Source of the DNA: Singulisphaera sp. GP187
GTDB lineage: Bacteria > Planctomycetota > Phycisphaerae > Phycisphaerales > SM1A02
Reading direction: 5' to 3'
Assembly: GCA_945869475.1 (NCBI GenBank)
Contig: CAMBOV010000001.1
Location: 186,001 to 250,000, forward strand
Length of the DNA: 64,000 nt
Made by a program: the position numbers and the translations under genes. Of the stretch, positions 42,612 through 59,724 are shown piece by piece. The notes beneath the pieces were generated by a model, which made no database searches, was not told where the DNA came from, and saw only the letters and a program-made list of their open reading frames with translations. Positions within the stretch are counted from its first letter, which is position 1. Each line of letters starts with the position of its first letter.

Positions 42612-42640
42612 GAAGTCTGAGTTAACAAGGACGAACTGAC

Positions 42641-43927
42641 ATGCCAACATTTGCCTACGTCGCAGCCAATTCAGCAGGGTCAACCCAAAAGGGGACGATC
42701 GAAGCCGCAAGTGGCGAAGAAGCGGTGCAGAAGATCAAGTCGCAAGGACTCTTCCCGACCTCAGTGCTCGAGCAGCGCAAGGGGGGCGAGAAGAAAAAGG
42801 CGATCAAGAATCAGGACAAGAAAAAGAAGAAGGGGTTCGCACTCTCGATTGGTGGAGTGAGCACCAAGATGCTGACAACCTTCACGCGGCAGATGTCGAC
42901 ACTGCAAGACGCAGGTCTACCGCTCTTGCGATCTCTTCAGATTCTGGAAGATCAGCAGAAGCCTGGCAAATTGAAAACCGTCCTCGGCGAAGTCTGCGAG
43001 TCGGTCAGTGGTGGATCAACACTCTCAGATGCGTTCGCGCAACATCCCAAGGTCTTCGAGACCCTCTACGTCAAGATGGTCGCCGCAGGCGAAATCGGTG
43101 GAGTTCTCGACGTCATCATGCAACGACTCGCGGAGTTCATGGAGAAGGGGCAACGACTGAAGCGCCGCATCATTGGAGCGATGATCTACCCCGCGGTGGT
43201 CATTTCGATCGCGGTATTGATCGTGACAGGAATCATGTACTTCGTGATTCCGAAGTTTCAGGAGATTTTCAACGACTTCGACGTCGAGCTTCCCGGGCTG
43301 ACGGTGTGGCTGATCGATGCGAGCAAGTGGGTCGCAGGGCAGCAACCCGATCAAAAGGTGCCAGGCGCGCTCTGGGTGCTCGCTTCTCCCTTCATCCTGT
43401 TCTTTGGCATGAAGCTCATTCGCAAGACTGACTTCGGTCGCGCCGCTACCGATGTGATCCGGACAAAAATTCCCGTCATCGGAGTGCTGATCAAGAAGAC
43501 CGCCATTGCGCGGTTTACGCGAACGCTCGGAACATTAGTTGCCGCAGGTGTGCCGATCCTCGAAGCGATCTTGATTACTCGCGACACCTCGGGAAACTAC
43601 GTCTTTGAGAAGGCGCTGACGAAGGTGCATGATTCCGTGCGCGAAGGAGAGTCGTTTTCAAAGCCTCTGCGTGACAGCAAGGTCTGCGACGCGCTCGTTG
43701 TCAACATGATCGACGTCGGTGAAGAAACGGGTGATCTCGATGCGATGCTGATGAAGATCGCGGATAACTATGAAGAAGAAGTCGACGTCGCTGTGGCGAG
43801 TTTGCTCTCACTGCTCGAACCATTCATGGTCGTCATCCTCGGCGGAATCGTAGGAACGATTGTTCTGGCGCTCTTTTTGCCGCTCGTGGCGATGATTGAG
43901 AGTGTTTCTGGTGGAGGCGGAAAGTAA
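42641..43927 (+). CDS. pilC: Inner-membrane platform protein PilC/GspF
   Basis: Polytopic platform on which the pilus or pseudopilus is assembled. 428 residues; AAGGA about 9 bases before ATG 42641. N-terminal MPTFAYVAANSAGSTQKGTIEA followed by EEAVQKIKSQGLFPTSV is the family start. A Lys-rich stretch (about 50-65) precedes the first T2SF domain TFTRQMSTLQDAGLPLLRSLQIL; the second repeat reads FTRTLGTLVAAGVPILEAI. Three membrane helices: about 183-208, 245-262, and 397-420. The end VVAMIES-type sequence plus GGGGK is short. Followed 5 bp later by the first pseudopilin. Confidence 0.95.
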   Translation: MPTFAYVAANSAGSTQKGTIEAASGEEAVQKIKSQGLFPTSVLEQRKGGEKKKAIKNQDKKKKKGFALSIGGVSTKMLTTFTRQMSTLQDAGLPLLRSLQILEDQQKPGKLKTVLGEVCESVSGGSTLSDAFAQHPKVFETLYVKMVAAGEIGGVLDVIMQRLAEFMEKGQRLKRRIIGAMIYPAVVISIAVLIVTGIMYFVIPKFQEIFNDFDVELPGLTVWLIDASKWVAGQQPDQKVPGALWVLASPFILFFGMKLIRKTDFGRAATDVIRTKIPVIGVLIKKTAIARFTRTLGTLVAAGVPILEAILITRDTSGNYVFEKALTKVHDSVREGESFSKPLRDSKVCDALVVNMIDVGEETGDLDAMLMKIADNYEEEVDVAVASLLSLLEPFMVVILGGIVGTIVLALFLPLVAMIESVSGGGGK

Positions 43928-43931
43928 CGAG

Positions 43932-44984
43932 ATGCTTCGACGCCGCGCATTCACGATCGTTGAACTGCTCACAGTTGTTGCCGTGATTGTGCTGCTCGTT
44001 GGCTTGCTCGTCGTCGTGCTCTCATCGTCTGCGAAGGCTGCTCAAACGGCGAGCACTCGAAGTTTGATGGGCACGTTGACCAACGCGATCACGCAGTTTA
44101 AGGCCGATCTTGGGTATCTGCCGCCGATCTTAGGAGCAGCGCCATCGGGTGGCAGCCTGCCAAATTCGAGGGGATATCTGCGCGACTTGCTCATTCCTCA
44201 GTCGTCGATCGGCCCCGCGTTGCCGCAGCAGGTGCCTGCGCAACAGTACGTCTCGATGACCTCACTCGTCGAGTATCTGACCGGCCCTGGTGGGCGCAAC
44301 GAAGATGGATTCGGCGGAGTTGGTACTCCGGCGGCAAACTCAGCCGGCTCGAAAGAATTGCCTGCTGTTGGTATTCGAAGTCCGCTCAAAGACGGTGCGT
44401 GGGGTGCGTATGTCACTCCGCTCAACTCGACGCAGCCGCTTGGCACCTTTGCGCAGCGCAATCTTCCGCCCAACACCCCAGACCCCAACATTTCGACGGC
44501 GCCAAATGTCTCGGGTCGTTCGTTCGGTCCCTATCTCGAATTGAAAGAGGGGACGATCTTCGGCGCCATCGTCGGCACACTTCCAAATGGCGCTCCGATT
44601 GTCGCGCGCCCTGGAGACAACAATTGGGATCCACTTTCTCCAAAGTGCATCGTTGATTACTGGGGTCAGCCGATTCGCTACTACCGCCGCGGCTATTTCA
44701 ATGGCGATCCTCGGTTGACCGCGGGTCGCAGCAGTGGAGGATCTGGCGGCGCCGGAATGGGATGGGATCTCTCAGACATCTTCGTGCTTCGCCCGCAGTC
44801 GTTCGTCACAGGAACGGAAGTGGATGGACTCGCCGATGGCAACAACGACCCGACGTCATCGCGCGCACTGCAAGGAGCAGACTTCGCGTTGATGTCTATG
44901 GGTCCTGACCGGAGTGCCGATTTCGGTCGCCGAGTCGATGAGGCGGGGTTCAACGCGGACAACGTTGTGGAGGTGAGCAAGTGA
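43932..44984 (+). CDS. Pseudopilin 1 (GspG-like prepilin)
   Basis: 350 residues from ATG 43932. The leader MLRRRA is followed by FTIVELLTVVAVIVLLVGLLVVVL, the prepilin peptidase site with Glu at +5 and an N-terminal helix; the residue before the cut is Ala rather than Gly. The rest contains a GspG-like stretch TRSLMGTLTNAITQFKADLGYLPP and a long Gly/Pro/Ser-rich globular part, larger than the usual 140-residue GspG. Late in the chain DIFVLRPQSF and FALMSMGPDRSADFGRRVDEAGFNADN resemble the calcium-loop end of GspG. Stop overlaps the next GTG. Confidence 0.85.
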   Translation: MLRRRAFTIVELLTVVAVIVLLVGLLVVVLSSSAKAAQTASTRSLMGTLTNAITQFKADLGYLPPILGAAPSGGSLPNSRGYLRDLLIPQSSIGPALPQQVPAQQYVSMTSLVEYLTGPGGRNEDGFGGVGTPAANSAGSKELPAVGIRSPLKDGAWGAYVTPLNSTQPLGTFAQRNLPPNTPDPNISTAPNVSGRSFGPYLELKEGTIFGAIVGTLPNGAPIVARPGDNNWDPLSPKCIVDYWGQPIRYYRRGYFNGDPRLTAGRSSGGSGGAGMGWDLSDIFVLRPQSFVTGTEVDGLADGNNDPTSSRALQGADFALMSMGPDRSADFGRRVDEAGFNADNVVEVSK

Positions 44985-45769
44985 GAGTTCGAAACCACCG
45001 TCGCGCCTTCACACTGCTCGAGTTGGTGATCGTGATCGGAATCATCCTGATTCTCATGGGACTTGCGCTCGCGGTTACAAGTTCGGTGCTCGCGTCGAAC
45101 GACCGACGCACGGTCGAAAACACCTTCAAGATGCTCGACCAAGCACTCGACTCGTGGCAGGCACAGATGGGACGCGAACTGACCTTTGGTCGCCGCGTCG
45201 TGCCTGGCGGTGGCACACCACCAATCGTCGCTGATTTCACGCTCGGCGCGAGTGGTCCGACCGCGAGTTATGACATTTATGAAGAGGATTTTCCGACGAC
45301 CTACGCGATCTGCGTGATGCTCGAGAAGCTCAGTGCGAGCCCCGACGCGATGGATGTCTTGTCACGAATTCCTGGAACGTCACTGCGCACGGTTCCAGTG
45401 AACGGAGTCACGATCCTGGGCGAACCCGTTCCTGCGACATGGTCTTCGACGTCGGCGCAGACCGATCCAAACCAGATGCCATTCCCCACTGTGGCGAATC
45501 CAAATGCGCTGCGAGAGATCGTCGATCCTTGGGGTCGGCGCATTGGGATCGCATTCGCTGGGCGGCGCGCGACGAAGGCTGAACTCTCTTCGACAGTGAC
45601 GCCGGCGCCACCTGTCGATGTTGAAGACGGATCGGTTCGCACGAGCGATGAGCAGTCCTTGGGTGTCTGCCGAAATCGCCGCAACTATTTTATGTCGGCC
45701 GGTCCCGATGGCGATTTCGGGACGACTGCAGACAACATCTACTCCTACGAACCGAAGCCACGCCCATGA
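44981..45769 (+). CDS. Pseudopilin 2
   Basis: 262 residues from GTG 44981 (GTGA overlap). Leader MRVRNHRRA, then FTLLELVIVIGIILILMGLALAVTSS with Glu at +5 and Ala before the cut. The middle contains TVENTFKMLDQALDSWQAQMGREL, a helix typical of GspG-like pilins. The C-terminus NYFMSAGPDGDFGTTADNIYSYEP matches the GspG calcium-binding ending S-x-G-P-D-G-x-x-G-T-x-D-D-I. This makes it the clearest major-pseudopilin relative in the operon. Couples onward through ATGA to pseudopilin 3. Confidence 0.85.
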   Translation: MRVRNHRRAFTLLELVIVIGIILILMGLALAVTSSVLASNDRRTVENTFKMLDQALDSWQAQMGRELTFGRRVVPGGGTPPIVADFTLGASGPTASYDIYEEDFPTTYAICVMLEKLSASPDAMDVLSRIPGTSLRTVPVNGVTILGEPVPATWSSTSAQTDPNQMPFPTVANPNALREIVDPWGRRIGIAFAGRRATKAELSSTVTPAPPVDVEDGSVRTSDEQSLGVCRNRRNYFMSAGPDGDFGTTADNIYSYEPKPRP

Positions 45770-46728
45770 TGCGCACTCGCTCACTCAGTCGTGGATTCAC
45801 ACTTGCCGAGTTGCTCGCGGTGATTGGAGTGATCGCTGTGCTCGCAGTGGTTGTGAGCATGAGTGCGCAGCGCATTTCAAAGGATGCCAAAATCTCGAGC
45901 GCGACGAATCAGGTCATCGCAGCACTCGGACAGGCTCGGGCGATCGCGATTCGCGATCATGCCGCCGTGCTCGTTGGATTTCGAGTTCGTCGTCCGACCT
46001 ATCGACTGAGCGATGGCACCGAGGTGATCGTCGAGTCATCGAAGCAGCAGACTGAGATCGTCATTGCGAAGGCAACGGGCAGAGTTGGCTTTCCTGGTGC
46101 GACAGTTGGGATTGGCAGTTACACGATCGTTTTTCCGTTCGCAGCGATCGATGACTTGCTGATCGAAGAGTTTGAACCCGTTGAAGGGTTGCCACCCAAG
46201 TTGTTGCCGGTGGGCACGAAAGTCGCCGGTTCTGGATCGGACTTGCCAGCGTTCCTCTTTTTGCCGAGTCCTGACCTGTTCTGGCTCTCCCAACCGCGCA
46301 TCAAGAGCAGCACGAATGCTGCACTCAACATCATCGGCAGCATGATTGTTGTCCGCTTTGCGCCGGATGGTTCGATCCAGACCCGCAACCCAACGTTGAG
46401 TGCGAATGCGACTTCTACACTGGGCAACACATCGTCCGTTGCCCCATACATCGATTTTAATCGCAATAACCGTATGGATATTGGAACGACAAACTCTGGA
46501 ACATCCAACACTATGTTCTTTAGCTTTGACGAATCAAACGATGAGCCGTTGGGGCAAAACGCGATGTTCCTCGCTGTGTTTGACGATGATCTCTTTGCGG
46601 AAATCGAAACCTTGGATGGGCTGAATTGGCAGGACGTCATCCGACGGCGCACGCCATTCGTGGATCAGTTTGCAGACCGCATTCACTTCAATCGATTTAC
46701 CGGCGTTGCTGAGGTCGTCCCACGATGA
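45766..46728 (+). CDS. Pseudopilin 3 (GspH-like)
   Basis: 320 residues; ATG 45766 (overlap ATGA) or ATG 45769. Leader ends SRG before FTLAELLAVIGVIAVLAVVVSMSAQ. The stretch SSATNQVIAALGQARAIAIRDHAAVLVGFRV is GspH/FimT-like: a second helix with a conserved ARxxAI and then beta strands. The remainder is a beta-rich globular domain with low similarity to any family I can name. Position fits an initiating minor pilin. Confidence 0.82.
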   Translation: MMRTRSLSRGFTLAELLAVIGVIAVLAVVVSMSAQRISKDAKISSATNQVIAALGQARAIAIRDHAAVLVGFRVRRPTYRLSDGTEVIVESSKQQTEIVIAKATGRVGFPGATVGIGSYTIVFPFAAIDDLLIEEFEPVEGLPPKLLPVGTKVAGSGSDLPAFLFLPSPDLFWLSQPRIKSSTNAALNIIGSMIVVRFAPDGSIQTRNPTLSANATSTLGNTSSVAPYIDFNRNNRMDIGTTNSGTSNTMFFSFDESNDEPLGQNAMFLAVFDDDLFAEIETLDGLNWQDVIRRRTPFVDQFADRIHFNRFTGVAEVVPR

Positions 46729-47933
46729 ACCGGCGCATCAACATCTGCTGCGGACGGCGCCGCGGTTTTTCGCTGGTCGAATTGCTGCTGGCCGTCTTCA
46801 TTCTTGCCATCGGCATCATCGGTATCTCTGCGCTCTTTCCAGCGGGAATCGCGCAGCAGCGACAGGCAACCGATGACACCATGGGTCCCGTCGTTGCAGA
46901 TAACGCGATGGCGATCCTGCGAACCAAATTGAAGCCAGAGTGGTTTGGAAGTTGCGACGAATTCTTTCAGCCATCCGATCGTGCCTATCCAAATGGCTTT
47001 GCACCGGCCGGGCTCGGGAACACAATCCCAGGTGATTGGCGGTGGAAGCGCCCAGGATTTCTCTTCGCAAACAACACCAACACTGCGATCAATGAACTCG
47101 GTGCGATCGATATTTTCAGTGCGCTCTACACAAGCAACATGCTTGGAGGGGCACTCGGTTCGGCACTCAACCCCTCACTCGCGGCGACTGAAGATTCCGA
47201 CGGGGGTGATCCCGTCGCCGCACCGCTCTTTGGGATTCCGTTCAACCGCGCGATGTTCGATCCGCAGTATCAGCCGTGGCCGAGTGTCACGGTGCGCGCA
47301 GATACCGCGCCATTGGTGATTGTGACGCAGCAAGAGCGCTCCTATCCGATGTCGGGAAGTGCGGGCAGCGGCACCAAGCGTCCACAGTATTTCTGGGAGT
47401 GCATGTTTCGAAAGTTTGAGGGGCGCGTGCAGGTTGCAGTCTTTGTCTTTCGAGTCTCCGATTCAGGCGGTGAACCTCGCGCGTACACGGTGGCGCAGTC
47501 TCTTGCCGCGCAGGGTGCGCTGGTGCCTCCACTGCCGATGGTTGCAAACCTCTCCACAACTCCATGGAGAGTGGGCGGACTCGACGGGATTGCCGTGACG
47601 ATCTCAGATAACTCGACTCTTCTCAGCGTGGCACCCGCGGCGACCCCAGCCTCGCTGCAAGTCGAACAGAGTTGGCAATCCCCTGGACAGTGGATCATCG
47701 ATGAATTCAATAGTGTGCACCGGGTGCTGATGGGGCGACGCACCACGAAGGATTCACTCGTCACGCTGACTCGTCCACTGCCAGATCAGACGCGAATTCC
47801 AGCGTTCTTTGGCAACGCGAACACTGGAGCGGTCGGTGCGAATCCTGGGATTCGCGCGCCCGCATTCATCCCCACCACGGACGCACGCAACTTCACGCTC
47901 GTTCCAATCTACGCAACGGTGCAGGAGCTCTGA
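46725..47933 (+). CDS. Pseudopilin 4 (PilV/GspI-like)
   Basis: 402 residues from ATG 46725 (ATGA overlap). Leader MNRRINICCGRRRG, then FSLVELLLAVFILAIGIIGISALFPAG, the longer hydrophobic helix and AIGI pattern seen in PilV/GspI minor pilins. The following TDDTMGPVVADNAMAILRTKL helix fits. The C-terminal three quarters are a globular domain with no clear family. The stop shares one base with the next start (TGATG). The leader with a CC pair is unusual and may allow disulfide or lipid contact, unproven. Confidence 0.82.
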   Translation: MNRRINICCGRRRGFSLVELLLAVFILAIGIIGISALFPAGIAQQRQATDDTMGPVVADNAMAILRTKLKPEWFGSCDEFFQPSDRAYPNGFAPAGLGNTIPGDWRWKRPGFLFANNTNTAINELGAIDIFSALYTSNMLGGALGSALNPSLAATEDSDGGDPVAAPLFGIPFNRAMFDPQYQPWPSVTVRADTAPLVIVTQQERSYPMSGSAGSGTKRPQYFWECMFRKFEGRVQVAVFVFRVSDSGGEPRAYTVAQSLAAQGALVPPLPMVANLSTTPWRVGGLDGIAVTISDNSTLLSVAPAATPASLQVEQSWQSPGQWIIDEFNSVHRVLMGRRTTKDSLVTLTRPLPDQTRIPAFFGNANTGAVGANPGIRAPAFIPTTDARNFTLVPIYATVQEL

Positions 47934-49468
47934 TGCGACGCGCATTCACAATGGTCGAGTTGATGGTGGCGGTCAGCCTGTTGGTTGTCGTGATCGCCGC
48001 GACGAGTCGAATCTTCAGCACCGCGAGTCGCGTCGCAGGATTGGGAGAAGCGAACACAAACATCTTGCAAGAGACCGCTGCGATCGAACGACAGATTCGT
48101 GGAGATATCGCACGGCTCGACACCGATGGAGTCTTTGTGATTCAGTGTGTCGCCGTTGGAAACAACGTCAACCAAACGGCAAATCCCTCGGCACCATTGA
48201 TTGACCCGTCGCGACCGCCGAACGCGATCATTCGAGCAGACCAATTGTTGTTCTTCGCCAAGGGAACGCAGGATTCCGCACGTTTTCTCGGTGCGCAGGA
48301 ACTTGGCGCCGTGGGCGGCCTCGCCCGAAGCGCCGTCTCGCGAGTGCTCTACGGCCATGGCGTGCAATTGCCTGATCTGATTCCAGTCGGTGGACTGCGA
48401 CCCGATCCAATCGGCTTTGATGATGGTCCACTTGTTCCGTGGAGCTTCGACTCGCTCAGCGATGGTGCGAGTTTGGACTATCAGTACTGGATCGGCGGCG
48501 GAGCAGGTCGCACCAATGGAACTCAACCAGAGGCGCGCGATTGGACACTCGCGCGACAAGCGGTGCTGCTCGCCGATGATGGCAACATCAAGACACTCTT
48601 TCAGAGCAATGCGACATACGGTCCGAACTCTGCGGTGAGCCTCTTCAACCAGGCGAATCTCTACACGCCACTGTTGGACGCGGCGCTCTCACCCAATCCA
48701 GACGTCGTGAACGCGCGCGTTGACGTTGCGGCATCCAATCTTGACGACATTCGCCGCATTCTCGCTCCCGCTGGGAACGCAAATTGGCGAACGCGCATCA
48801 TCAACGGATTCTTCGGAGCCTTCGGTGACTATGGGCAACTCGGTGGATATGTTCGCAGCGAAAAACGCGCGCCGAGTATGGACCGCCAGGATGTGATGCT
48901 CACCACTTCGACGCTCGCATCCAATTGTTCGACCTTCATGGTCGACTGGACATGGGCGCGGGGAGTGGGATCAACCGTTGTTCCGACCGCGCCCGTTCAA
49001 ACCATGCTGCTAGGGTTTACTCCCTCGGGTCTCTTTCCAACGCCGTGGTTTGGCTTTCCAGACCAGTTGGTCGCAAACGTTGATGAGCAGCGGGGGGTGA
49101 CGACATTGATCGACTATCAGCGCGATTACGTCTCGGGCGGAACTTCACTCTTCGTGCAAGCGCCGATCGTGCCAGCCGCGATCGAAGGATCCTTCGGCAG
49201 CGGTGTCACACCCGTTGCGCGACCCTTCGGCGCAGGGGTGCCCATCTCGGTCTATACGGCAGTCTTCGGATTCAACGGCGACAAGGCGTATTTTCAATCG
49301 TTCGCAACTTCAGGTTCGCAGTTCGCTCCGTTTGTCACGCGCTCTGACTTCACACCGTGGCCGACTGCGATTCGAATCACGATGACACTCAACGATCCAC
49401 AGAAAAAACTTGAGCAGGGAAAAACTGTTCAGCTTGTCATCGAACTTCCGCAACGTCCAGTGTCGTAA
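47933..49468 (+). CDS. Pseudopilin 5 (PilW/GspJ-like)
   Basis: 511 residues from ATG 47933. Very short leader MRRA, then FTMVELMVAVSLLVVVIAATSRIFSTASRV. The next helix TNILQETAAIERQIRGDIARLD matches the PilW/GspJ pattern (E-x-x-A-x-x-R-Q-I-R-x-D-I-x-R-L). The rest is an unusually large globular domain rich in Asn, Gly and aromatic residues and ending LVIELPQRPVS, typical of a beta-strand end in GspJ-like proteins. Separated from the giant GspK-like gene by 16 bp. Confidence 0.82.
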   Translation: MRRAFTMVELMVAVSLLVVVIAATSRIFSTASRVAGLGEANTNILQETAAIERQIRGDIARLDTDGVFVIQCVAVGNNVNQTANPSAPLIDPSRPPNAIIRADQLLFFAKGTQDSARFLGAQELGAVGGLARSAVSRVLYGHGVQLPDLIPVGGLRPDPIGFDDGPLVPWSFDSLSDGASLDYQYWIGGGAGRTNGTQPEARDWTLARQAVLLADDGNIKTLFQSNATYGPNSAVSLFNQANLYTPLLDAALSPNPDVVNARVDVAASNLDDIRRILAPAGNANWRTRIINGFFGAFGDYGQLGGYVRSEKRAPSMDRQDVMLTTSTLASNCSTFMVDWTWARGVGSTVVPTAPVQTMLLGFTPSGLFPTPWFGFPDQLVANVDEQRGVTTLIDYQRDYVSGGTSLFVQAPIVPAAIEGSFGSGVTPVARPFGAGVPISVYTAVFGFNGDKAYFQSFATSGSQFAPFVTRSDFTPWPTAIRITMTLNDPQKKLEQGKTVQLVIELPQRPVS

Positions 49469-49484
49469 GAGGCGAGAGCAGCAC

Positions 49485-52400
49485 ATGAACATTCGACCAT
49501 CCATGCCAGCCAGCACAGTGAAACGCCGTGGAAGCACGATGATCTTGGTCGTCTCGATCTTGGTGTTGCTCGTGATCATCGCATCGGCATTCGTGAGTCG
49601 CACGCAGGCTGGACGAATGACCGCGAGTGCGCAGCAGCAAACCGCGGCACAGAGCGACCGTGTCGGTCCCATTGCAGACGCGGTCACGAAAGAGATTTCG
49701 CAGAGCCTGTTCGCACAGCCCGTGAATATCAATGATGCAGCGCTGGCGCTCGTGGGCCCTGCGGGAACGATTCCAGCCGCGTCAAGCTCGATGCCTCGCC
49801 TCGCGCCCAACAACTCGCAGACTCGATTTTCGATCGACCCACTTGATCAACTCAACAATTCGACGCTCGCCCCGATGCCCGCAGGGGATGGCATCATCGA
49901 CGGATACAACTTTGCTCCCTTCGAGGTGCGTCCGTGGACCAACTGGCCTGACATCTACAACTTCTCGCCCGCTGGGGACATTCGCCTCGACGAGGGAAAT
50001 CCAGTGGGTAATCCCGGCTTCGGCGATACTCGGTGGTTGCGTAGTACTGAACCGGTGCGTGTTGTGTACAGCGGTCAACCGGCCTTCTCGCACTGGTCAC
50101 ATCTTTCGTGGATTCCAACGGCGAACAATGGATGGCGCCTCGTCACAGACATTTCGAACATCGCATCGAACACGCTGACTGCCGTTCCACCGGGACTGCT
50201 GCCTGCGCAGTTTTTTCCGAATGTTCCACTGCGATACGCGCTCGACATTCCGTACGAACAGTGGTTGCCATCGGTGCCGCCTGATCCGAATTTGTGGATT
50301 CCAACGATGATCGGGGTGATTCCGCCAGCGCCGGTGGGACCCTTTCCAAATGCAAGCATCCCACAGGGTGATGCAGCGCTGACCTTTCAGCAATTGGCGT
50401 TCGGTGGAGCGCCCGTTCCTGCACCAGGTCCTGCGCCGACAGGCGGATGGTTTTCGAGCGCGCATCCATCGATGATGTCGGAAATGGATTCAGCCCTGCC
50501 GAACTTCTTGCGCCTGAAATGGTTCGGTCCCAAGTACGACGAGTTTGTGCTCGACAGTCCTCGCAACATCATCACGCGCACCCTGTGCGACACGGATGGC
50601 GATGGATTCACCGACAGTTTTTGGTTTCTCGCGCCCTCGTCGCTTGACCGATCGATTCGCCACGTCGTTGGAGTCTCAGTCGTCGACAACTCAGCGCTCT
50701 TGAACGTCAACATCGCATCGCGATTTGACCTTGCGACGACGGGGGGTAAGACTCCGTCCGACCTTGCGCTTGTGGGACGTTTGAATGAGCCGGCAGCAGT
50801 GGCGATCGCGAGCGGTCGCGAAGTCGGCTACCTCAGCTCGCAACTGAATACTGCAGCGGCGAATGCGTACAGCGGTGTCACGGTTCAATTCGACCCAACG
50901 AAGTTCGGATCACCCACGACGGTGAATGGAATGATTGCGCCCAATGAGAACGACCCAACATTTCTCGCAGAACTCGGTGTTGTGAAGGAGCGGGCAGGCA
51001 CTGGGACCGCGCCTGTTCCCGCGATTGCGAGCGCGGCGTTTCCAAATTTTCTCAAGTCAGATCTCGAGCGCACGAACTACTTCAAGGCGATGAGTCAGGG
51101 TGGTGAAGTCGAGGGATATTTCGACACAACGGGCGCCGCAGTCATTCGCATCAACGGCATGGCGCAAGAAGTGCTCGAGCCATTCACGATGGCCGATGAG
51201 TTCGAACTTCGTGCCTATACGGGACACAACAACCCCTATCTGCGCAGTCGCCTCGAACGGGCGCTCGAGACTGAGGTCACGTCGGCCGGCGCGGTCAGCA
51301 CCGCGAGTCAGTTTCTGCGCTCAGCGATGACACGCGAAGAGACGAGCGAGTACTTCGATCAACTCGATGCGCGTCAGTTGCTCTTTGACAATCGCCGCAA
51401 GCTCACCACGGCAAGTGGCGCGCGCAATGAGTTGATGCCGCCGTGGCTCTGGACACTTCCTCCAATTCCAGTGGCACCTGTAGGCGGCGGCACGTGGCCA
51501 CCGAACTCGCAGCGAAGTTGGAAGCCGCTCTATGAGGTGGGGTATGGAGCCTTGGATGTCACGGCACCGCGAAGCGTTCCGCCGCAGGGCGCGCCTGATC
51601 TCGGGCTGCAGTTTCCAGCGCAACCTGGCGCAGCAATCGGCGATGCGAATTGTGATGGATTCGTTGATCAGCGAGATGTGGAGATCGCGCGAGAGCAGTT
51701 TCTTCGGTGGAACCGCAAGGTCGACATCAACCGAGAGTTGTTTGTCGACAACGCGAGCGCGGTTCAACTCAACGACGCGCAGCACGATTTCGCCCGCGAC
51801 ATCATGAAGGTCTTGCAGCGCAGTTTGCTCGACGTCGACACGCGAACGAGTGTTTTTGGAAGTGATCCAGAAGATCTCGACAAAGCGCGCCGAGCTGCGG
51901 CGAGTTGGACTGCAAACCTCATCGCGGCGCGTGATGGGCCACGCCTCGGTAGTTCGACTATCAACATCCCAACCGATCCGCCGCTCCATCCAGATCATGG
52001 GATCATTTTGGATGAAACGCCACCACTGAGTTTCATCGGACAAGAGAAACACCCCTTCATCGTGCAGGCTTTTTTCGCCGTGGTGTATCCAAAGACCGGC
52101 GTCGTGCCCGCGGATGTTCCTGGCGCGGGCAATTCGTATGTCTGCTATGACCAAACCAACAACGACCCAGCGCGAATTGTGCTCGCTGTTCAGATCGCCA
52201 ATCCATACAACGAACCGATCTCACTCTGGCCATTTCAGTTGCGGGCGTTCGGCCAGCCGTTTCAGTTTCTTCAACCACCCACTGGCACCGATGGCAAGTG
52301 GGGATATGGAGTCGACCCGATCCTTGGACCGGCAACCGAAGAGGGTCCACGAACGGCTGTGATCTTCGCGATTCCCAAGGAACTCGGCGGCGACGCAAAA

Positions 52401-54977
52401 TTTCGCGCGCGCATGATGAACGCTCTCGATCTCACCCACCCGTGGCTTCGTGCGAGTGGAGTGCCTTCTGGGGCAATCGCTCCAAAGACCTTGCAGACCG
52501 AAGTCGGATTGCTGCCCGCCTCGGAAGTCTTTCCTGGCAGCGGTGGGAACGGCTACGACCTCTTCGAAGACAACGCAACCTTGTACGCCGATTCGATGCT
52601 CTTCAACGCGTCCAAGCCAACAGGTGCCGAAGTTGCAGCGGAAGCAGGGTCGGATCGCTGGGACCTTCATCCCAAGTTCTATTACGACAAAGTTGACTCG
52701 TCGAACCCGCTCGATAGCGAGATCGCAATCGTCCGGCTCGTCGGCAATCCGTTGAATCTAGCGGCCAGCGCGACGATCGTCGTCGACCGACTCGAGAATG
52801 AATACGCCTTCGCGTCGAGCGCGGGTGCGACGAGTGAAGCGAATCGTCCGTGGCGAGAGGCACTCAAGCGATTGTTGACCCCGCCGTCGTCGAGTGGCAG
52901 CGGTGCAGGTGGCGGCATGAGCGGTGGTGGTGGCGGCGTTGGGGGTGGAGCGTCAGGTAACTCGCCTGACATGGTTCCACCGAAGTATGTCGCGCCAGAT
53001 CCGGGCAGTGCGACCCAGCAGTTCGAGCACATCGATATCGGCGACAACGAGTTCTTGATGACCTGGGCGCGCATAAGCCGTCCATGGGTGATGGACGTCG
53101 ATGGCAACATGGCGATCACCAGCGACGAGCGATCGCCGCGCTATGTCTTTGCGATGAACAGTGCACCAGTACTCTCGAAAACGAGTACGGGCATCCCAAC
53201 ATTCATTGGATTGACGCAAGGCAACGAGTCTGATTTCGCGGGAGCTGTCTTTACGAAAGATGATCTCAAGACAAAGCCAGACACCCTTCTCATGCGCACG
53301 GTGCGAGGCCCATTCGCCGGAAATGTGCGCGGAAAGCCGACGAATTTCACCTTGCGCACGGTGTTGAATGGGGCGGACCGAATCTATCCCTCGTTCAATG
53401 ATCCAGTCACCGGAACAGCGTGGCCTGGCACGCCAGGGCTTGCGACGGCTCCCACGGTGATCTTTGGCGATACCGGCGCGACCATTCCAAAGCCAGCGCT
53501 CGATTTCTACCGCCATCCGCTTCGCATGAGTCAGCGCGATGGGCCCTTTGAGCAGATTGCTGAAGTGCTCGACGTTCCGGTGTGGGGTCCAGTGATGCAG
53601 CAGGATGCATCGGGCGGTGGGTGGTCATCGCTCGCAACGTATGGAGAAATGATGGTCGGTGCGCGCGACTTCACAAGCGGCAAGCGAGTTGTCAATCAGT
53701 CGCAAGTGGACTTTCCAACATTCGCGCCCGTCCGCGCCGATGCAACGCCTGTTGTTGGTGACGAACGTGAGACGATGCGATTTCTCTTCGACCGCGCGCG
53801 CCCCGCGGTGCTCAGTGTCGTTGGTTTCGTTCCGCCGCTTCCAGCAGGCTCGTCGATCTTGGATGGATTCACCCTCGACGGCGCAGGCTTGCCACTCATC
53901 GATACGAACCGCGACGCGAGTTACACCGCGGCTGAGCGACTCTCAGCAGAGCAACGCCGACTTCGCCTCGCAGCGGGCTTCAACGGCGGCTCGACGCAAG
54001 GATTAATCAATGTCAATACCGCTCCACTCGAAGTGCTTCGCGCGCTGCCTCAGATGCAGCAGCTCTCGTACAACAATGAGGCACCAGGAGTCGACGCTGA
54101 TCTTCCGTGGGCTCCAACGGGTCAGAATGGCGACAAACAGTACTTCGTGCGCGTTCCTGAGTCGATCATCAATTATCGCGAGCGCTTTCCCGCTGAGAAC
54201 GGATTCATGGATGGACCCAAGTATGTTGATCGCGGCTTTGTGCAAACTGCACCTGACCCGGAGCTCTATCCATTTCATCCTGGGATGCGCAGCGAGCGTG
54301 GAATCGTCTCTGTCGGCGAACTCGCGCTGGTTGACCGTGAGTACAGACCATCCGCTGCGAGCGCTGAGCAAGAGGCGTTGGAGCCTGATCCTGAGCGGGA
54401 CCCCTATCCCAGTGAACTGGGCGAGCTCTTGGGGGGAGGAGTCACAAACTGGACGAGAAACAAGTCATGGGGAATTCATTTCGCCGGGCGCGATCCCTAC
54501 CGATGGGTCGAATATCCGCTACAGCCAGCGGGTGGGGGTCTCCCACCGGCAGGAGCCGGGTTGCCAGCGTCAGACAAAGGGAAGGGTTGGCGTGCGTCGA
54601 TGGCCGTGGGAGACCAGAGTTTCTCGAGCCAGCTCTCGACCGATCGACTCGCGCACACGCTTGTGCAGACTGATTTCCTGCTCACTCCTGTTATCGAGCC
54701 CACGCTCGCCACCACCACGATCAACGCTGGCGATCAAACCGAACGCAATTCGCTGCTCAAAGGGATCGCCAACCTCGTGACGACGCGAAGCGATGTTTTC
54801 ACCGTCTATTTGAAGGTGCGATCGGTCTCGCAGGATCCTGCAACCGGCATCTGGGATGCCACAAATCCTGCGACACTTGTTGAAGAGTCACGCTACCTTT
54901 TGGTGGTCGACCGTTCAAAGGTCGAACGTCCTGGCGACCAGCCAAAGATCTTGATGTTCGAGAAGATTGTTGAGTGA
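49485..54977 (+). CDS. Giant GspK-like minor pseudopilin, 1830 residues
   Basis: ATG 49485 is used, since an earlier start lies inside the previous gene. N-terminus KRRG then STMILVVSILVLLVIIASAF: a prepilin site without Glu at +5, as in GspK. Near the C-terminus INVNTAPLEVLRALP (from I1508) is the GspK helix-hairpin motif. Between them are about 1,400 residues not in ordinary 300-residue GspK. Visible inside are two calcium-loop-like sequences, DTDGDGFTD (369-377) and DANCDGFVDQRD (720-731, dockerin-like), and a Gly/Ser linker at about 1137-1160. Stop overlaps the uppS GTG. Expected to cap the pseudopilus tip with a very large exposed domain. Confidence 0.85.
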   Translation: MNIRPSMPASTVKRRGSTMILVVSILVLLVIIASAFVSRTQAGRMTASAQQQTAAQSDRVGPIADAVTKEISQSLFAQPVNINDAALALVGPAGTIPAASSSMPRLAPNNSQTRFSIDPLDQLNNSTLAPMPAGDGIIDGYNFAPFEVRPWTNWPDIYNFSPAGDIRLDEGNPVGNPGFGDTRWLRSTEPVRVVYSGQPAFSHWSHLSWIPTANNGWRLVTDISNIASNTLTAVPPGLLPAQFFPNVPLRYALDIPYEQWLPSVPPDPNLWIPTMIGVIPPAPVGPFPNASIPQGDAALTFQQLAFGGAPVPAPGPAPTGGWFSSAHPSMMSEMDSALPNFLRLKWFGPKYDEFVLDSPRNIITRTLCDTDGDGFTDSFWFLAPSSLDRSIRHVVGVSVVDNSALLNVNIASRFDLATTGGKTPSDLALVGRLNEPAAVAIASGREVGYLSSQLNTAAANAYSGVTVQFDPTKFGSPTTVNGMIAPNENDPTFLAELGVVKERAGTGTAPVPAIASAAFPNFLKSDLERTNYFKAMSQGGEVEGYFDTTGAAVIRINGMAQEVLEPFTMADEFELRAYTGHNNPYLRSRLERALETEVTSAGAVSTASQFLRSAMTREETSEYFDQLDARQLLFDNRRKLTTASGARNELMPPWLWTLPPIPVAPVGGGTWPPNSQRSWKPLYEVGYGALDVTAPRSVPPQGAPDLGLQFPAQPGAAIGDANCDGFVDQRDVEIAREQFLRWNRKVDINRELFVDNASAVQLNDAQHDFARDIMKVLQRSLLDVDTRTSVFGSDPEDLDKARRAAASWTANLIAARDGPRLGSSTINIPTDPPLHPDHGIILDETPPLSFIGQEKHPFIVQAFFAVVYPKTGVVPADVPGAGNSYVCYDQTNNDPARIVLAVQIANPYNEPISLWPFQLRAFGQPFQFLQPPTGTDGKWGYGVDPILGPATEEGPRTAVIFAIPKELGGDAKFRARMMNALDLTHPWLRASGVPSGAIAPKTLQTEVGLLPASEVFPGSGGNGYDLFEDNATLYADSMLFNASKPTGAEVAAEAGSDRWDLHPKFYYDKVDSSNPLDSEIAIVRLVGNPLNLAASATIVVDRLENEYAFASSAGATSEANRPWREALKRLLTPPSSSGSGAGGGMSGGGGGVGGGASGNSPDMVPPKYVAPDPGSATQQFEHIDIGDNEFLMTWARISRPWVMDVDGNMAITSDERSPRYVFAMNSAPVLSKTSTGIPTFIGLTQGNESDFAGAVFTKDDLKTKPDTLLMRTVRGPFAGNVRGKPTNFTLRTVLNGADRIYPSFNDPVTGTAWPGTPGLATAPTVIFGDTGATIPKPALDFYRHPLRMSQRDGPFEQIAEVLDVPVWGPVMQQDASGGGWSSLATYGEMMVGARDFTSGKRVVNQSQVDFPTFAPVRADATPVVGDERETMRFLFDRARPAVLSVVGFVPPLPAGSSILDGFTLDGAGLPLIDTNRDASYTAAERLSAEQRRLRLAAGFNGGSTQGLINVNTAPLEVLRALPQMQQLSYNNEAPGVDADLPWAPTGQNGDKQYFVRVPESIINYRERFPAENGFMDGPKYVDRGFVQTAPDPELYPFHPGMRSERGIVSVGELALVDREYRPSAASAEQEALEPDPERDPYPSELGELLGGGVTNWTRNKSWGIHFAGRDPYRWVEYPLQPAGGGLPPAGAGLPASDKGKGWRASMAVGDQSFSSQLSTDRLAHTLVQTDFLLTPVIEPTLATTTINAGDQTERNSLLKGIANLVTTRSDVFTVYLKVRSVSQDPATGIWDATNPATLVEESRYLLVVDRSKVERPGDQPKILMFEKIVE

Positions 54978-55759
54978 ACACCGCCGTGACCGCCTCTGAA
55001 GTACCACAACACATCGCCATCATCATGGATGGCAACGGCCGCTGGGCGCAGTCTCGTGGACTGCCGCGGGTGGTCGGTCATCGTGCTGGTGCAGGGGCGA
55101 TTCGTCCCGTACTCGAGCGGGCCGAGCAACTCGGCGTCAAGGTGCTCACCCTCTATTCATTTTCGAGCGAGAATTGGAACCGCCCCACAGCTGAAGTCGA
55201 TGCGTTGATGGCTCTCTGCTGCGAGAAGCTCGCTCAGGAGCGCGCCGGCCTCATCGAATCGGGCATTCGCCTACGCCGCATCGGCAGTCGCGCGGGACTT
55301 CCTGCTGAAGTCTTGCGCGAACTCGATCTCACCGAGGCGGCGACGGCGGGGGGCACAAAGATCACGCTCGCGCTCGCTCTGAATTATGGATCGCGCGGCG
55401 AGATCGTCGACGCCGTGCGAACACTCTCAGCGCGCGTGGCAGTAGGCGAACTCACCCCATCGCAGATCACTGAAGAATTGATTTCCAAGACCCTCTACAC
55501 GAGTGACCTGCCAGACCCTGACCTGCTGATTCGAACGGGAGGGCAGATGCGGCTCTCGAACTATCTCTTGTGGCAACTCAGCTACTCAGAAATCCTCTTT
55601 TCGAACACGCTGTGGCCAGACTTCTTGCCAGAGGATCTTTGCGCTGCCGTCGACGAGTTTGCACATCGCAAGCGCACCTTTGGAGGGATCGCCACAGAAA
55701 CATCAGCGCAGAGCATCCCGGTGGGAAGCCACTACGTAGAGCAAGGTGGTCTGTCATGA
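54974..55759 (+). CDS. uppS: Isoprenyl (undecaprenyl) diphosphate synthase
   Basis: cis-Prenyltransferase that makes the polyprenyl diphosphate carrier used for cell-wall and surface sugars. 261 residues. Catalytic region HIAIIMDGNGRWA with D19, then the YSFSSENWNRP motif, and DLLIRTGGQMRLSNYLLWQ with WPDF close to the end: all hallmarks of UppS. GTG 54974 overlaps the pseudopilin stop (GTGA), and its own stop overlaps the next ATG, so this enzyme is sandwiched in a chain of overlapping genes with no functional relation that I know of. Confidence 0.95.
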   Translation: MNTAVTASEVPQHIAIIMDGNGRWAQSRGLPRVVGHRAGAGAIRPVLERAEQLGVKVLTLYSFSSENWNRPTAEVDALMALCCEKLAQERAGLIESGIRLRRIGSRAGLPAEVLRELDLTEAATAGGTKITLALALNYGSRGEIVDAVRTLSARVAVGELTPSQITEELISKTLYTSDLPDPDLLIRTGGQMRLSNYLLWQLSYSEILFSNTLWPDFLPEDLCAAVDEFAHRKRTFGGIATETSAQSIPVGSHYVEQGGLS

Positions 55760-58700
55760 GGTCACTTTGTCTGCAATTTCTCGCACTCTGTTGCGTCGTG
55801 GCAACGGTCGCGACGCGCGCGAGCGGTCAGTACTGCGCCCCTGCAGTTTTCTTGGGTGACCTGAACGAAGACAATTTGGTCAATGACACCGACCGATTCT
55901 TCTGGCAGAACCTCTTTAACACGAATCAGTATCTGCCCTGCGCAGATCTCAATCGAAACGGTGTTCTTGACTATGAAGACAAGGTGATGTTGGCGCGCGC
56001 CGCGAAGTTCGCCCAAGTTGGCGGGGGTGGTCTCGGCTTGCAAGGTCGACTGCCGACATTCACGATTTCTGAGTTGCGCTGGGCGCGGGTGAATCCCGCC
56101 GACCCTCAGCAGCGGTACGTCGAGTTTCGTGTGCCAGCGAATCTTCCGGCGAACTACAACTTCTCTCGTCAGTTCGACGCGGGCTATTACTTGGTGCTCG
56201 TCTCGCGCAATAACGGCACGAGCGTGAACAATGGCGTGATTCGTCGAGTCATCAACCTGCAAGGGCTGCCATTTGCAGGTGGAGCGGGGACCTCGTCGGC
56301 TCTCGGCTTGCTCATCGATTCGAGTTTCTCACTCCCGTTGCCAGCAGGATTCGTTGATTTCCAAACGCCAGACGGTCAGCCGATCACCTTCACAAGCCAG
56401 ACTGATTTGAATACGACGTGGTTGCTTGTCTATCGCAGACCGAGTGGTCCTGGGTACAACGCTTCGGCCGCACTGCCAGTTGTCGGGCAGATCATCGATC
56501 GCAATCAGGATTGCATGATCGACAATCGATTCTTGCCGACCTTTCCGAGCCCGCCTCCGCCGTATGCACTGCCGCCGTGGGATCTGATCCTCGATGCGAT
56601 TGCCGTCGATCGCTCGCTCGTGACGACTGCGCCCGGTGGGCGTGGCTGCATCTATGCGCATGGTCCACTCTTTGAAGTCGCACCGGTTGAGTCGGCACTG
56701 GGCACGCTCGAAGCTGCGTATCACGTCTATCGAAATGCAGACAACAAACTTTTGAGCGCAGTCTTTCAAGAGGTCACCACCGGAATTGACACTCCTGGAA
56801 AGATCAACGCGACGAGCGCCGAGAGTGTCTTTTGTGGCTCGGACACTGCTGGATCGTGCACCGTCGAACGGACAACACCATTCTGCAGCGACCGCGAGTG
56901 TTGTCAATTCGTCTGCAATAGCGACCCATTCTGCTGTGAGATTCAATGGGACGACGTCTGCGTTGCCTCTGCTGGGGTCAATTGCGGCGCGTGCGGCCTG
57001 CCTGGCACTGGCGGGTGCTTCACTCCGCACGCCTCGCCCAATTGCTCGTCGCCAACCTGCTGTGTAAATGTCTGTGCCGAGTTGCCGCTCTGCTGCACGC
57101 TGACGTGGGACGAAGCGTGCGCATTGAAGGCACTCGAAGTCTGCCTGCAGTGCGGAGAAGTCGCACTCACGAGCTGCTTCCAAGTCGGATTGACTCCCTT
57201 CTGCAATGACGCCGCCTGCTGCACGACTGTCTGCCAAGTCGATCCAGCGTGCTGCGAGTTTGTCTGGGATGCATCCTGTGTCTCGCACGCGTCTTTGCTC
57301 TGCCAAGAGTTAGCGTGTGGAAGCATGAGCAGTGGCGATTGCTGCCTCTCACATGGCACACCCTTCTGCTCAGACTTTCTGTGCTGCGAGAGTGTCTGCA
57401 CGCTCGACCCATACTGCTGTGAGTTTGTCTGGGACGTCCAGTGCGTGACCGAAGCGCTGCAATTCTGCACGACCGTCTCATGCCCCTGCGGTGGTGGCGG
57501 AGCCGATGCAAAATGCTTCGTCGTGCATGAGTCTCCTGGATGCTCGTCGGTGACCTGCTGCAATTCAGTCTGCAACAGCGATCCATTCTGTTGTGGAATC
57601 ACTTGGGATGCTTCGTGCGTCGCCGCCGCCGAAGCACTCTGCGCGGCGAATCCGCTCTGCGAGGGGGCGCTCGGTGGCTGCTTCGTCGAACACCCATCGG
57701 TCGGTTGTTCAGACCCCGCATGCTGCACAAATGTCTGCGCCGAAGATCCAAACTGTTGCACGATCGAATGGGATGCCGCCTGCGTTGCGCTCGTGGCAGT
57801 CGTCTGCCAAGGATGTGGCGATGTCTTTGCGGGGAGCTGCTCTGTCGCGCACAAGACTCCGTCTTGCGACGACAGCCCCTGTTGCTTGCTGGTCTGCGAG
57901 AACGATCCTTTCTGCTGCGAAACAGTCTGGGACGTCGCGTGCGCTGATCAAGCGATCGCGACGTGCGCTCCGAAGTTGACGGGTTGCGGCAACGACGGTG
58001 GACGCAGTTGCTTCGTGGCGAGTTTTCTCAAAGGATGTTCGGATCCACTCTGTTGCGCTGCGATCTGCGGAACCGAAGTGAGTGGATACGCAGTCGACGA
58101 TTACTGCTGCACCGTGCAGTGGGATGCAATCTGCGTCGGCGAGGCATTGACCTTCGCGCGCCTTGGACTCGGATGTCAACTCCCAACCGGATCGGCCGGG
58201 CGGGGAGATTGTCTCGTGGCCCATCCTGAGAAGGGATGCGCCGATATCGAGTGTTCAGCGGCAGTCTGCAGCATCGTGCCAACGTGTTGCACGATTGCGT
58301 GGGATGCCCAGTGCGCCGATTTTGCGCCCTACGTCTGCATCACCACAGGCGGATGCCCTGGCACTGGGTCATCATTCGCGGTTCACGCGACGCCAGGGTC
58401 GATCGATCCGTCGTGCTGTCAGGGAGTCTGCGTGGTGCGTCCTGAATGCTGCTCGATTGCATGGGATTCGCAGTGTGTGTTGATCGCGAATCAGCGCTGC
58501 CGTCCGGATGGCGATTGGAATCTGCCGTGCACTGGATCGTGCATCGAGGCGCATGACAATCCAGGATGCGAAGATGTCTCATGCGCAAGCGTCGTCTGCT
58601 ACGTCGATGCGCTCTGCTGCACCGCGGCATGGGATCTAGACTGCGCCTCGCTCGCACGCGGATTGTGCTGTGGATTCCCCGGATGCGGCAACTCGTGCAA

Positions 58701-59724
58701 CGGCGGATGTCTCGTGCCACACGAAAGCCCATACTGCAGCGATCCGTATTGTTGCGCCGCGGTCTGCGCGCAAGATCCATACTGCTGCGAGACCGTCTGG
58801 GACTCGGGCTGCGTGAAGTTTGCCTTTCAACGCTGCGCGCGCGGATGTGGCAACAGTGAGGCGGGAAGTTGTCTCAGCGGTCACGGAACGCCAGGCTGCG
58901 ACGACGCCGTCTGCTGCACCAAGATTTGCACGACCGATCCATTCTGTTGCGACACCTCTTGGGACAGCGCCTGCGGTCAAGCGGCTCAGGACGAAGAGCT
59001 CTGCGGCACACTGCTCGAGTGTGGAAGCGAACTCTCGCAGGATTGCTGCTCGGAGCACATGGGCTCGCCAACATGCCGCAATGCGTCCTGCTGCGACGCA
59101 GTCTGCGCGGCCGATCCAATCTGCTGCGAACTTGGATGGGACGGCGCATGCGTCGCTGCGGCACGGGCGCTCGACTCGTGCGATTGCATCCGACCCTGCG
59201 GTGACCTCTGTGCGGGTGATTGCTGCTCTGAGCATCCCAACCCAAGTTGCCGCGACCTCACCTGTTGCACGCTCGTGTGTGCTCAAGATCCATACTGCTG
59301 CGACTCGGCGTGGGACGTGACCTGCGCATCGATGGCTCGAACATTGTGCGCGACCGGACCCGACAGCGCATGCCCCCGACCAGAGTGCGGCGATCGAGAT
59401 GCAGGTCAATGTTGCTTACCCCACTTGACGCCAGCTTGCAGCGACGCGAAGTGCTGCGAGAGTGTCTGCGCGCTTGAACCACTCTGTTGCAGCGTGACCT
59501 GGGATAGCACCTGCGCTCAACTTGCCGGCACAGAATGCACGATCTGCGATGGACCAAACTGCGGATCACCCGAGACGGGTTCGTGTTTCTCGCCGCACAT
59601 CACCCCCTTCTGTAGTCAGGCGAGCTGCTGCGGACTCATCTGCGGCAAGGTGCAGCCAGAGTGCTGCTCGATCGCATGGGATGAATCGTGCGTCGCGATC
59701 GCGCTGATCTTTTGTAATCCGTAA
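55756..59724 (+). CDS. Secreted multidomain protein with 17 cysteine-rich WD repeats
   Basis: 1322 residues from ATG 55756. Signal peptide 1-24 ends in RASGQ. Residues about 34-85 form a dockerin-like pair of calcium loops (GDLNEDNLVNDTD and ADLNRNGVLDYED). Residues about 100-345 are a beta-rich part that starts ISELRWARVNPADPQQRYVEF and recalls lamin-tail-type domains, low confidence. From residue 366 to the end come 17 repeats of 45-60 residues, each with CC-x3-C, another CC and a WDxxC core, about 10 Cys per repeat, over 160 Cys in total. No catalytic motif. Probably a disulfide-rich surface or matrix protein that folds outside the cytoplasm. Function unknown. Confidence 0.85.
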   Translation: MRSLCLQFLALCCVVATVATRASGQYCAPAVFLGDLNEDNLVNDTDRFFWQNLFNTNQYLPCADLNRNGVLDYEDKVMLARAAKFAQVGGGGLGLQGRLPTFTISELRWARVNPADPQQRYVEFRVPANLPANYNFSRQFDAGYYLVLVSRNNGTSVNNGVIRRVINLQGLPFAGGAGTSSALGLLIDSSFSLPLPAGFVDFQTPDGQPITFTSQTDLNTTWLLVYRRPSGPGYNASAALPVVGQIIDRNQDCMIDNRFLPTFPSPPPPYALPPWDLILDAIAVDRSLVTTAPGGRGCIYAHGPLFEVAPVESALGTLEAAYHVYRNADNKLLSAVFQEVTTGIDTPGKINATSAESVFCGSDTAGSCTVERTTPFCSDRECCQFVCNSDPFCCEIQWDDVCVASAGVNCGACGLPGTGGCFTPHASPNCSSPTCCVNVCAELPLCCTLTWDEACALKALEVCLQCGEVALTSCFQVGLTPFCNDAACCTTVCQVDPACCEFVWDASCVSHASLLCQELACGSMSSGDCCLSHGTPFCSDFLCCESVCTLDPYCCEFVWDVQCVTEALQFCTTVSCPCGGGGADAKCFVVHESPGCSSVTCCNSVCNSDPFCCGITWDASCVAAAEALCAANPLCEGALGGCFVEHPSVGCSDPACCTNVCAEDPNCCTIEWDAACVALVAVVCQGCGDVFAGSCSVAHKTPSCDDSPCCLLVCENDPFCCETVWDVACADQAIATCAPKLTGCGNDGGRSCFVASFLKGCSDPLCCAAICGTEVSGYAVDDYCCTVQWDAICVGEALTFARLGLGCQLPTGSAGRGDCLVAHPEKGCADIECSAAVCSIVPTCCTIAWDAQCADFAPYVCITTGGCPGTGSSFAVHATPGSIDPSCCQGVCVVRPECCSIAWDSQCVLIANQRCRPDGDWNLPCTGSCIEAHDNPGCEDVSCASVVCYVDALCCTAAWDLDCASLARGLCCGFPGCGNSCNGGCLVPHESPYCSDPYCCAAVCAQDPYCCETVWDSGCVKFAFQRCARGCGNSEAGSCLSGHGTPGCDDAVCCTKICTTDPFCCDTSWDSACGQAAQDEELCGTLLECGSELSQDCCSEHMGSPTCRNASCCDAVCAADPICCELGWDGACVAAARALDSCDCIRPCGDLCAGDCCSEHPNPSCRDLTCCTLVCAQDPYCCDSAWDVTCASMARTLCATGPDSACPRPECGDRDAGQCCLPHLTPACSDAKCCESVCALEPLCCSVTWDSTCAQLAGTECTICDGPNCGSPETGSCFSPHITPFCSQASCCGLICGKVQPECCSIAWDESCVAIALIFCNP
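56851..59721 (+). repeat. Coding array of 17 cysteine-rich repeats
   Basis: Consensus by eye: G-x-C-x5-8-P-x-C-x-D-x-x-C-C-x-x-V-C-x-x-D-P-x-C-C-x3-W-D-x-x-C-x-x-x-A-x3-x-x-C. WD and the Cys three residues later are present in all 17 copies. Copies 9 and 11 lack the second Cys of the first CC pair; copy 10 lacks both of the first two single Cys; copy 8 has a short insertion before the second CC. The diversity at protein level argues for an old array, not recent copying. Confidence 0.9.

Follow-up and report, generated by a model that had tools for sequence, protein, structure and literature searches.

The locus described here raises the question of why a bacterium would string together seventeen copies of one cysteine-rich unit in a single secreted protein, and whether such a string is a loose repeat or a structure of fixed build. 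We analysed a stretch of 64,000 nucleotides from Singulisphaera sp. GP187 (Planctomycetota, Phycisphaerales, SM1A02 in GTDB; assembly GCA_945869475.1, contig CAMBOV010000001.1, positions 186,001 to 250,000 of the forward strand), hereafter the window. The array gene runs on the + strand from an ATG at 55756 to a stop codon ending at 59724, and its product, P0001, has 1322 residues by translation. Residues 360-1320 (window 56833-59715) form an array of 17 units of 51-63 residues each. We find that unit count, order and spacing have mostly been kept while the sequences diverged between genera, and that the unit is a module absent from the libraries searched (Pfam, NCBIfam, PHROGs and PDB).

An array of seventeen units kept across genera

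A first-pass annotation made from the letters alone had proposed seventeen W-D-x-x-C units in a secreted protein with more than 160 cysteines, and the counts confirm it. All 17 W-D-x-x-C sites of P0001 lie inside the array, WD is present in 17/17 units (an 18th WD, at residue 275, is outside) and the protein has 183 cysteines, of which 176 are within the array. The proposed extent was largely right, with the start at 56833 rather than 56851 and unit lengths of 51-63 rather than 45-60 residues. Ten framework cysteines, close to the number first suggested, are found in most units; the number is lower in units 9-11, and one extra is present in each of units 4, 14, 15 and 16. The gene and its units, numbered in a frame of 51 profile columns, are as follows.

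55756..59724, + strand: array gene, encoding the secreted protein of 1322 residues (translation, sequence)
56833..56985, + strand: unit 1 (this and all following units from the unit alignment)
56986..57144, + strand: unit 2
57145..57303, + strand: unit 3
57304..57468, + strand: unit 4, extra cysteine C10 in 21/21 seventeen-unit arrays (also array comparison)
57469..57642, + strand: unit 5
57643..57807, + strand: unit 6
57808..57966, + strand: unit 7
57967..58155, + strand: unit 8, with an insert of 7 residues
58156..58338, + strand: unit 9, C1 and C24 both missing
58339..58500, + strand: unit 10, C9 and C18 both missing
58501..58668, + strand: unit 11, C24 missing
58669..58836, + strand: unit 12
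58837..59004, + strand: unit 13
59005..59181, + strand: unit 14, extra C10 in 17/21 seventeen-unit arrays (also array comparison)
59182..59349, + strand: unit 15, extra C10 in 21/21 (also array comparison)
59350..59538, + strand: unit 16, extra C10 in 21/21 (also array comparison)
59539..59715, + strand: unit 17

Positions C23, C28, C34, C35, W39, D40 and C43 are invariant in the 17 units, which have a mean pairwise identity of 43 % (highest 57 %). In a profile search of the own genome they score E 3e-16 to 3e-21 with a profile made from those very units. These E-values, together with units that had no part in the profile in seven more proteins of the own genome and in other genomes, show that the repeat is not a product of chance.

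Long tandem arrays commonly gain and lose units. To compare arrays we used regions from 29 family genomes, dropped four with 3-6 units only (L205, L340, L341, L343) and added the window and a named record (L090) to the 25 remaining, giving 27 arrays; nine more genomes of the genus, several of them fragmentary, lie outside this set. Genomes had been chosen for strong matches in long frames, which creates a bias towards large arrays and not towards the number 17. The unit number is 17 in 21 of the 27 arrays, 18 in three, 19 in one and 20 in two. The seventeen-unit arrays come from the window, nine fetched members of the genus, six other genera and L090.

The order of the units is conserved as well. 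Among seven representatives (one pair within a genus, and with L090 possibly kin to L204), aligning unit i with unit i is the best of all shifts from -4 to +4 in 21/21 pairs, with diagonal z values of 1.7 to 13. The spacing of the units correlates between arrays with r of 0.50-0.98, a level reached by at most 140 of 5000 permutations for pairs that include the window and by no more than 1 in 5000 for all remaining pairs. The extra C10 is likewise tied to position: over the 21 seventeen-unit arrays it occurs in all copies of units 4, 15 and 16, in 17 of unit 14 and in four of unit 17, and in 0/21 for units 1-3 and 5-13. Three close pairs gave ratios of nonsynonymous to synonymous change (dN/dS) of 0.113, 0.105 and 0.086 over the array, at synonymous differences of 0.58-0.70 that are nearing saturation, and kept 176/177, 180/180 and 173/177 cysteine sites.

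Taken together, seventeen units in 21/27 arrays and a fixed order over seven genera indicate that the length of the array and the identity of its units are selected, which is unusual for a tandem array. A recent duplication or free expansion of the P0001 array is ruled out by the low identity among its units and by the orthology of individual units across genera.

The unit as a module of secreted proteins

The consensus, drawn from 505 units below 80 % identity, reads C1-G-x6-C9-(C10)-x2-H-x2-P-G-C18-x-D20-x2-C23-C24-x2-V-C28-x2-D31-P-x-C34-C35-x3-W39-D40-x2-C43-x3-A-x3-C51. Over these units C34, W39 and C43 are invariant or almost so. The P0001 units show the frame of the module, namely C9, C18, C23, C24, C28, D-P-x-C-C, W-D-x-x-C, A and C51. 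Besides the cysteines, the tryptophan and the helix-cap and core residues, few positions are strongly conserved, the exceptions being H13 (60 %) and P16 (69 %).

None of the 17 units matches any Pfam model at E 1, which rules out EGF, TIL, granulin and other known modules and agrees with the earlier impression that the unit is not EGF, granulin, kringle, TIL or WAP. With whole P0001 the only Pfam match, to Dockerin_1 (E 0.027), falls outside the array; NCBIfam gave no match at E 1 and PHROGs none. Against PDB sequences, a phmmer search with P0001 gave a best E of 0.13, while hmmsearch returned no rows for one unit profile (A1) and two rows at E 0.6 for another (A2), all at chance level. A second look with VIA-align found nothing. 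We found no account of this unit in the literature, in a search that scarcely covered subscription journals and is weak evidence of absence.

A further scan took in 68 proteins, 290-1450 residues long, that host the unit; they come from the window, from loci L051-L053 of the own genome and from the named loci L069-L148. P0001 was scanned separately, and loci L149-L185 were left out. The commonest Pfam family is Dockerin_1 (10 proteins); a subtilase domain is present in 8, a C-type lectin domain in 3 and FG-GAP or Kelch repeats in others; the commonest NCBIfam families reach 3/68. Since the most frequent Pfam family is found in only 10 of the 68, no Pfam family covers the unit common to all hosts. 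The first-pass suggestion of an undescribed module thus holds for Pfam, NCBIfam, PHROGs and PDB, where no entry covers it.

A profile search finds the unit 28 times in the own genome, 17 times in P0001 and 11 times in seven other proteins. The module is present in 19/19 genomes of the genus searched and in 88/101 of the family. For comparison, it was found in 13/150 genomes of the class, 4 of those in the own family, and in 2/294 of the phylum, both in the own family. Another carrier is encoded in the window:

2630..5926, - strand: S8 subtilase with two divergent units (profile and Pfam matches)

By eye, proteins at loci L080, L087, L093, L094 and L100 are similar to this subtilase in their length, their C-terminal end and the position of the units.

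A pattern scan of named genomes gave at least 117 stretches, and 102 of the 117 listed carry the unit by profile. A hand count of the taxon labels of those listed gives 58 planctomycete, 33 myxobacterial, 13 other deltaproteobacterial, 3 Bacteroidota, 1 Neomarinimicrobiota and 1 Nocardia stretches. The Nocardia match is rejected, having no unit by profile and 0 matches in the whole record. Of 16 genomes with pattern hits that were searched whole, 15 have units, for instance Paraliomyxa miuraensis with 54 matches, Sorangium cellulosum So0157-2 with 5, and metagenome-assembled genomes of Phycisphaerae and Flavobacteriales with 109 and 18. The unit serves widely as a building block in secreted proteins.

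One Paraliomyxa stretch (G536:C72:465638-467746) has six unit matches spaced 330 bases apart, five of which share one score; the seventh comes 324 bases further on. This repeat is a young expansion, unlike the conserved array.

A shorter version of the unit is present, in secreted proteins, in 119 of 120 stretches (L206-L325) among the matches listed from IMG/VR, whose contigs are filed as viral. It keeps C23, C34, C35, W39 and C43, with C18, C24 and C28 replaced. The open reading frames with this version carry a repeat of the GC-x-D type in 114/119 among the matches listed, and the unit often stands ahead of a secretion tail. Of four host proteins tested, three carry a Por_Secre_tail domain at their end (one under the cut-off) and the fourth has a dockerin match; the Por_Secre_tail endings make the IMG/VR carriers look like Bacteroidota genes, and a phage origin is unlikely. 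Annotated phages and plasmids gave no match to the first six units, and viral contigs no relative of P0001.

Probable disulfide pairing and predicted fold

How might the ten cysteines of a unit be arranged? We infer the pairing from the joint gain and loss of cysteines over the 505 units; as the units share descent, the figures overstate their independence. C9 and C18 are both present in 443 units, one or the other alone in 2 and 11, and neither in 42 (phi 0.86). For C28 and C35 the corresponding numbers are 492, 2 and 4, and 7 (phi 0.70). The association of C1 with C24 is looser, with 355 units having both, 73 and 13 having one and 55 neither (phi 0.50). C51 is missing in 3/5 units that have no helix cysteine (C23 or its substitute C26) versus 25/484 of the others (Fisher p 0.0016); there are two exceptions to this C23/C26-C51 link, and in the L090 case the first cysteine of the next unit is what is counted.

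These patterns suggest five disulfides per unit, C1-C24, C9-C18, C23-C51 and C28-C35, with C34-C43 left by elimination. The earlier estimate of about five disulfides is thus backed by joint cysteine loss. An optional sixth may join C10 to an extra cysteine in the following linker: two or more cysteines are found there in 107/118 units with C10 versus 39/254 without. In all 11 exceptions the next unit has no C24, which would leave the single linker cysteine free to pair with C10.

AlphaFold2 models of units 1-2 (alignment of 85 rows) and units 1-4 (67 rows) reached a predicted local distance difference test score (pLDDT) of 91.1 and 89.8 and a predicted template-modelling score (pTM) of 0.61 and 0.66, respectively. 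We read the pTM values as a partly defined orientation between units. In unit 1 the predicted helices span residues 21-30, 33-36 and 41-51, the last ending at 50 in the four-unit model. The unit would accordingly be a helical domain of about 51 residues with three helices, of which the first has ten residues, the second is short and the third has ten or eleven, and with the invariant tryptophan probably in the core.

In the models D20 and D40 immediately precede a helix, and D31, followed by P32, stands two residues ahead of one. From this position at predicted helix starts, the conserved Asp 20, 31 and 40 probably cap the helices, and we do not take them for a metal site. In Foldseek searches the two-unit model brought up a single PDB row, at E 8.1, and the four-unit model none; against a viral library there were two rows, at E 3.4 and 3.9. 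Small disulfide-rich folds may be missed by Foldseek, and a PDB miss is not proof of a new fold.

It is conceivable that the cysteine clusters bind metal instead of forming disulfides. The array is strongly acidic (net -87 by residue count), and the own genome (96.7 % complete) has no match to the DsbA, Thioredoxin_4, DsbB or VKOR families of oxidation genes, in searches that were positive for 3 to 9 of the 14 control genomes. Against this idea, cysteines are for the most part gained and lost in fixed pairs, as expected for disulfides, whereas metal sites usually take three or four ligands, and a signal peptide can be recognised by eye. We therefore regard metal binding as very improbable. The first-pass proposal of metal or glycan binding finds no support, given the paired loss of cysteines and the conserved aspartates ahead of predicted helices.

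Gene surroundings and possible roles of the array

The array gene follows a series of genes on the same strand that runs from a secretion cluster to uppS, with several starts and stops overlapping; among these, the stop codon of uppS shares bases with the ATG of the array gene (ATGA). The genes upstream of the array and the remaining parts of P0001 are listed here.

40848..54977, + strand: type II secretion / pseudopilin cluster (Pfam; adjacency in relatives), comprising the next five entries
40848-42611, + strand: T2SSE (Pfam)
42641-43927, + strand: T2SSF (Pfam)
43896-44984, + strand: open reading frame with no match in the Pfam scan
44981-49468, + strand: four genes with an N-methylation motif, one just under the cut-off (Pfam)
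49482-54977, + strand: giant GspK-like gene of 1831 residues (GspK name by eye; no Pfam match)
54974..55759, + strand: uppS, undecaprenyl diphosphate synthase (PF01255, E 4.4e-78; synteny)
55756..55830, + strand: putative signal peptide, about residues 1-25 of P0001 (by eye; orthologues with similar stretches)
55852..55998, + strand: dockerin-like EF-hand pair, residues 33-81 (PF00404, E 0.027, under the Pfam cut-off)
55999..56832, + strand: N-terminal domain, residues 82-359, with no Pfam match

Downstream of the array are purA and hemW, both named by eye. Residues 33-81 score 15.1 bits against PF00404, below the cut-off of 22.9 and hence short of a dockerin type I assignment; the segment in orthologue L187 (E 0.0008, 20.0 bits) is likewise under the cut-off. 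Residues 82-359 may be lamin-tail-like. The N-terminal region is 52-96 % identical in nine members of the genus and is absent from L204 and L090. Between the window and L186 the synonymous difference is 0.145 over this part (55756-56832) against 0.575 over the array, which looks as if the N-terminal half had recently been exchanged. In L188, L192, L197, L198, L199 and L204 the array is followed by a tail rich in proline and lysine/arginine, which is absent in the window and some other orthologues.

In most relatives uppS lies beside or near the array. The GspK-like gene lies close to the array, or to uppS next to it, in the window and in five other genera, as well as in seven members of the genus with contigs extending to this gene. 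Three arrangements occur: on the same strand with uppS in between; in convergent orientation in two genera, at distances of about 35 bases and 2.4 kb; and, in one genus, immediately ahead of the array. Export of P0001 may start with the Sec pathway, and the type II secretion machine whose genes lie immediately upstream possibly takes over from there.

We favour the reading that the 17 position-specific copies make up a fixed-length, disulfide-stapled scaffold at or outside the cell surface, a role to which we give an even chance. The chain of 17 units would be of fixed length, acidic and protease-resistant, and both its length and the place of each unit would matter, as in a rod, a ruler or a docking backbone. 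A stiff fibre or matrix, as suggested in the first-pass annotation, would be a plausible role.

Several observations weigh against this reading. Six of the 27 arrays have 18-20 units, and the weakest diagonal, window versus L204, was equalled in 258 of 5000 permutations. With regard to pairing, 73 of the 428 units with C1 have no C24, unit 14 in five arrays keeps C28 though C35 is lost, and the missing oxidation genes described above count here as well. By hand count, with signal peptides cut by eye, mature cysteine totals are odd in 5/10 genus members and even in 5, so that not all cysteines can pair inside one chain, and full cysteine parity as proof of complete pairing is ruled out. With regard to export, the secretion cluster is not within the fetched stretch in eight array-bearing genomes, and the GspK-like gene is present in 89/101 family genomes, including 11/13 that have no units. 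The latter numbers indicate that the machine is general and the array at most one client, which weakens the idea of a secretion machine dedicated to the array.

Odd cysteine totals would permit links between chains and so bear on an alternative, in which P0001 would be a structural component of the envelope whose disulfide-linked chains are cross-linked into a protein wall, as thought for YTV-domain proteins in Planctomycetales. Planctomycete walls have been described as disulfide-bonded protein sacculi (PMC2754498). YTV cysteine-rich proteins were found in planctomycete wall preparations and are reported only in Planctomycetales, with genes for peptidoglycan distributed the opposite way to those for YTV (PMC8567305). 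Another lineage would then need another protein. YTV-less lineages may, on the other hand, have peptidoglycan instead, which speaks against a protein wall in the present lineage and slightly lowers its odds. The array gene adjoins an envelope gene, uppS. A link to such walls is attractive because of the restriction of YTV proteins to Planctomycetales, but the string YTV is not present in P0001 and a bulk wall polymer would not need a fixed unit order. We consider a cross-linked wall unlikely.

Another explanation is that the array serves as an adhesin or enzyme-docking backbone whose units bind partners or polymers, the module being a recognition domain elsewhere. The dockerin, subtilase, C-type lectin, FG-GAP and Kelch companions of the unit in its hosts would fit such a role, and position-specific units could each have a different partner. 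The few strongly conserved residues between units give little sign of one shared binding site, and we rate this explanation as unlikely.

The fixed-length scaffold that we favour also has a more specific form. In it, seventeen non-interchangeable disulfide-stapled domains of undescribed fold would act as a count-locked ruler or wall rod in the family's cell surface, delivered by the adjacent pseudopilin machine and standing in place of the YTV proteins of Planctomycetales. All of this together we hold to be quite doubtful. It has long been asked which cysteine-rich proteins give planctomycete envelopes their form, and the array is a possible candidate. In addition, the analysis yields a profile for a secreted module that has no Pfam or NCBIfam entry and is present in 88/101 family genomes and in named Myxococcota strains.

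How does the unit compare with known systems? The myxobacterial disulfide repeat TIGR02232 (myxo_disulf_rpt) and PF13948 (DUF4215) are also cysteine-rich repeats of secreted bacterial proteins, and each occurs in 2/68 unit hosts; neither matches the 17 units or P0001. EGF, TIL, granulin and other Pfam disulfide modules share the build of short extracellular disulfide-rich tandem units, but the present unit has no Pfam match at E 1 and is predicted to be all-helical, with no significant PDB match. Dockerin type I (PF00404) resembles the EF-hand-like residues 33-81 of P0001 and accompanies the unit in 10/68 hosts, and is a domain separate from the unit that stays under the cut-off in P0001. The YTV wall proteins are, like P0001, cysteine-rich planctomycete proteins; they differ in being reported only from Planctomycetales and, going by the string alone and not by a domain model, in the YTV motif.

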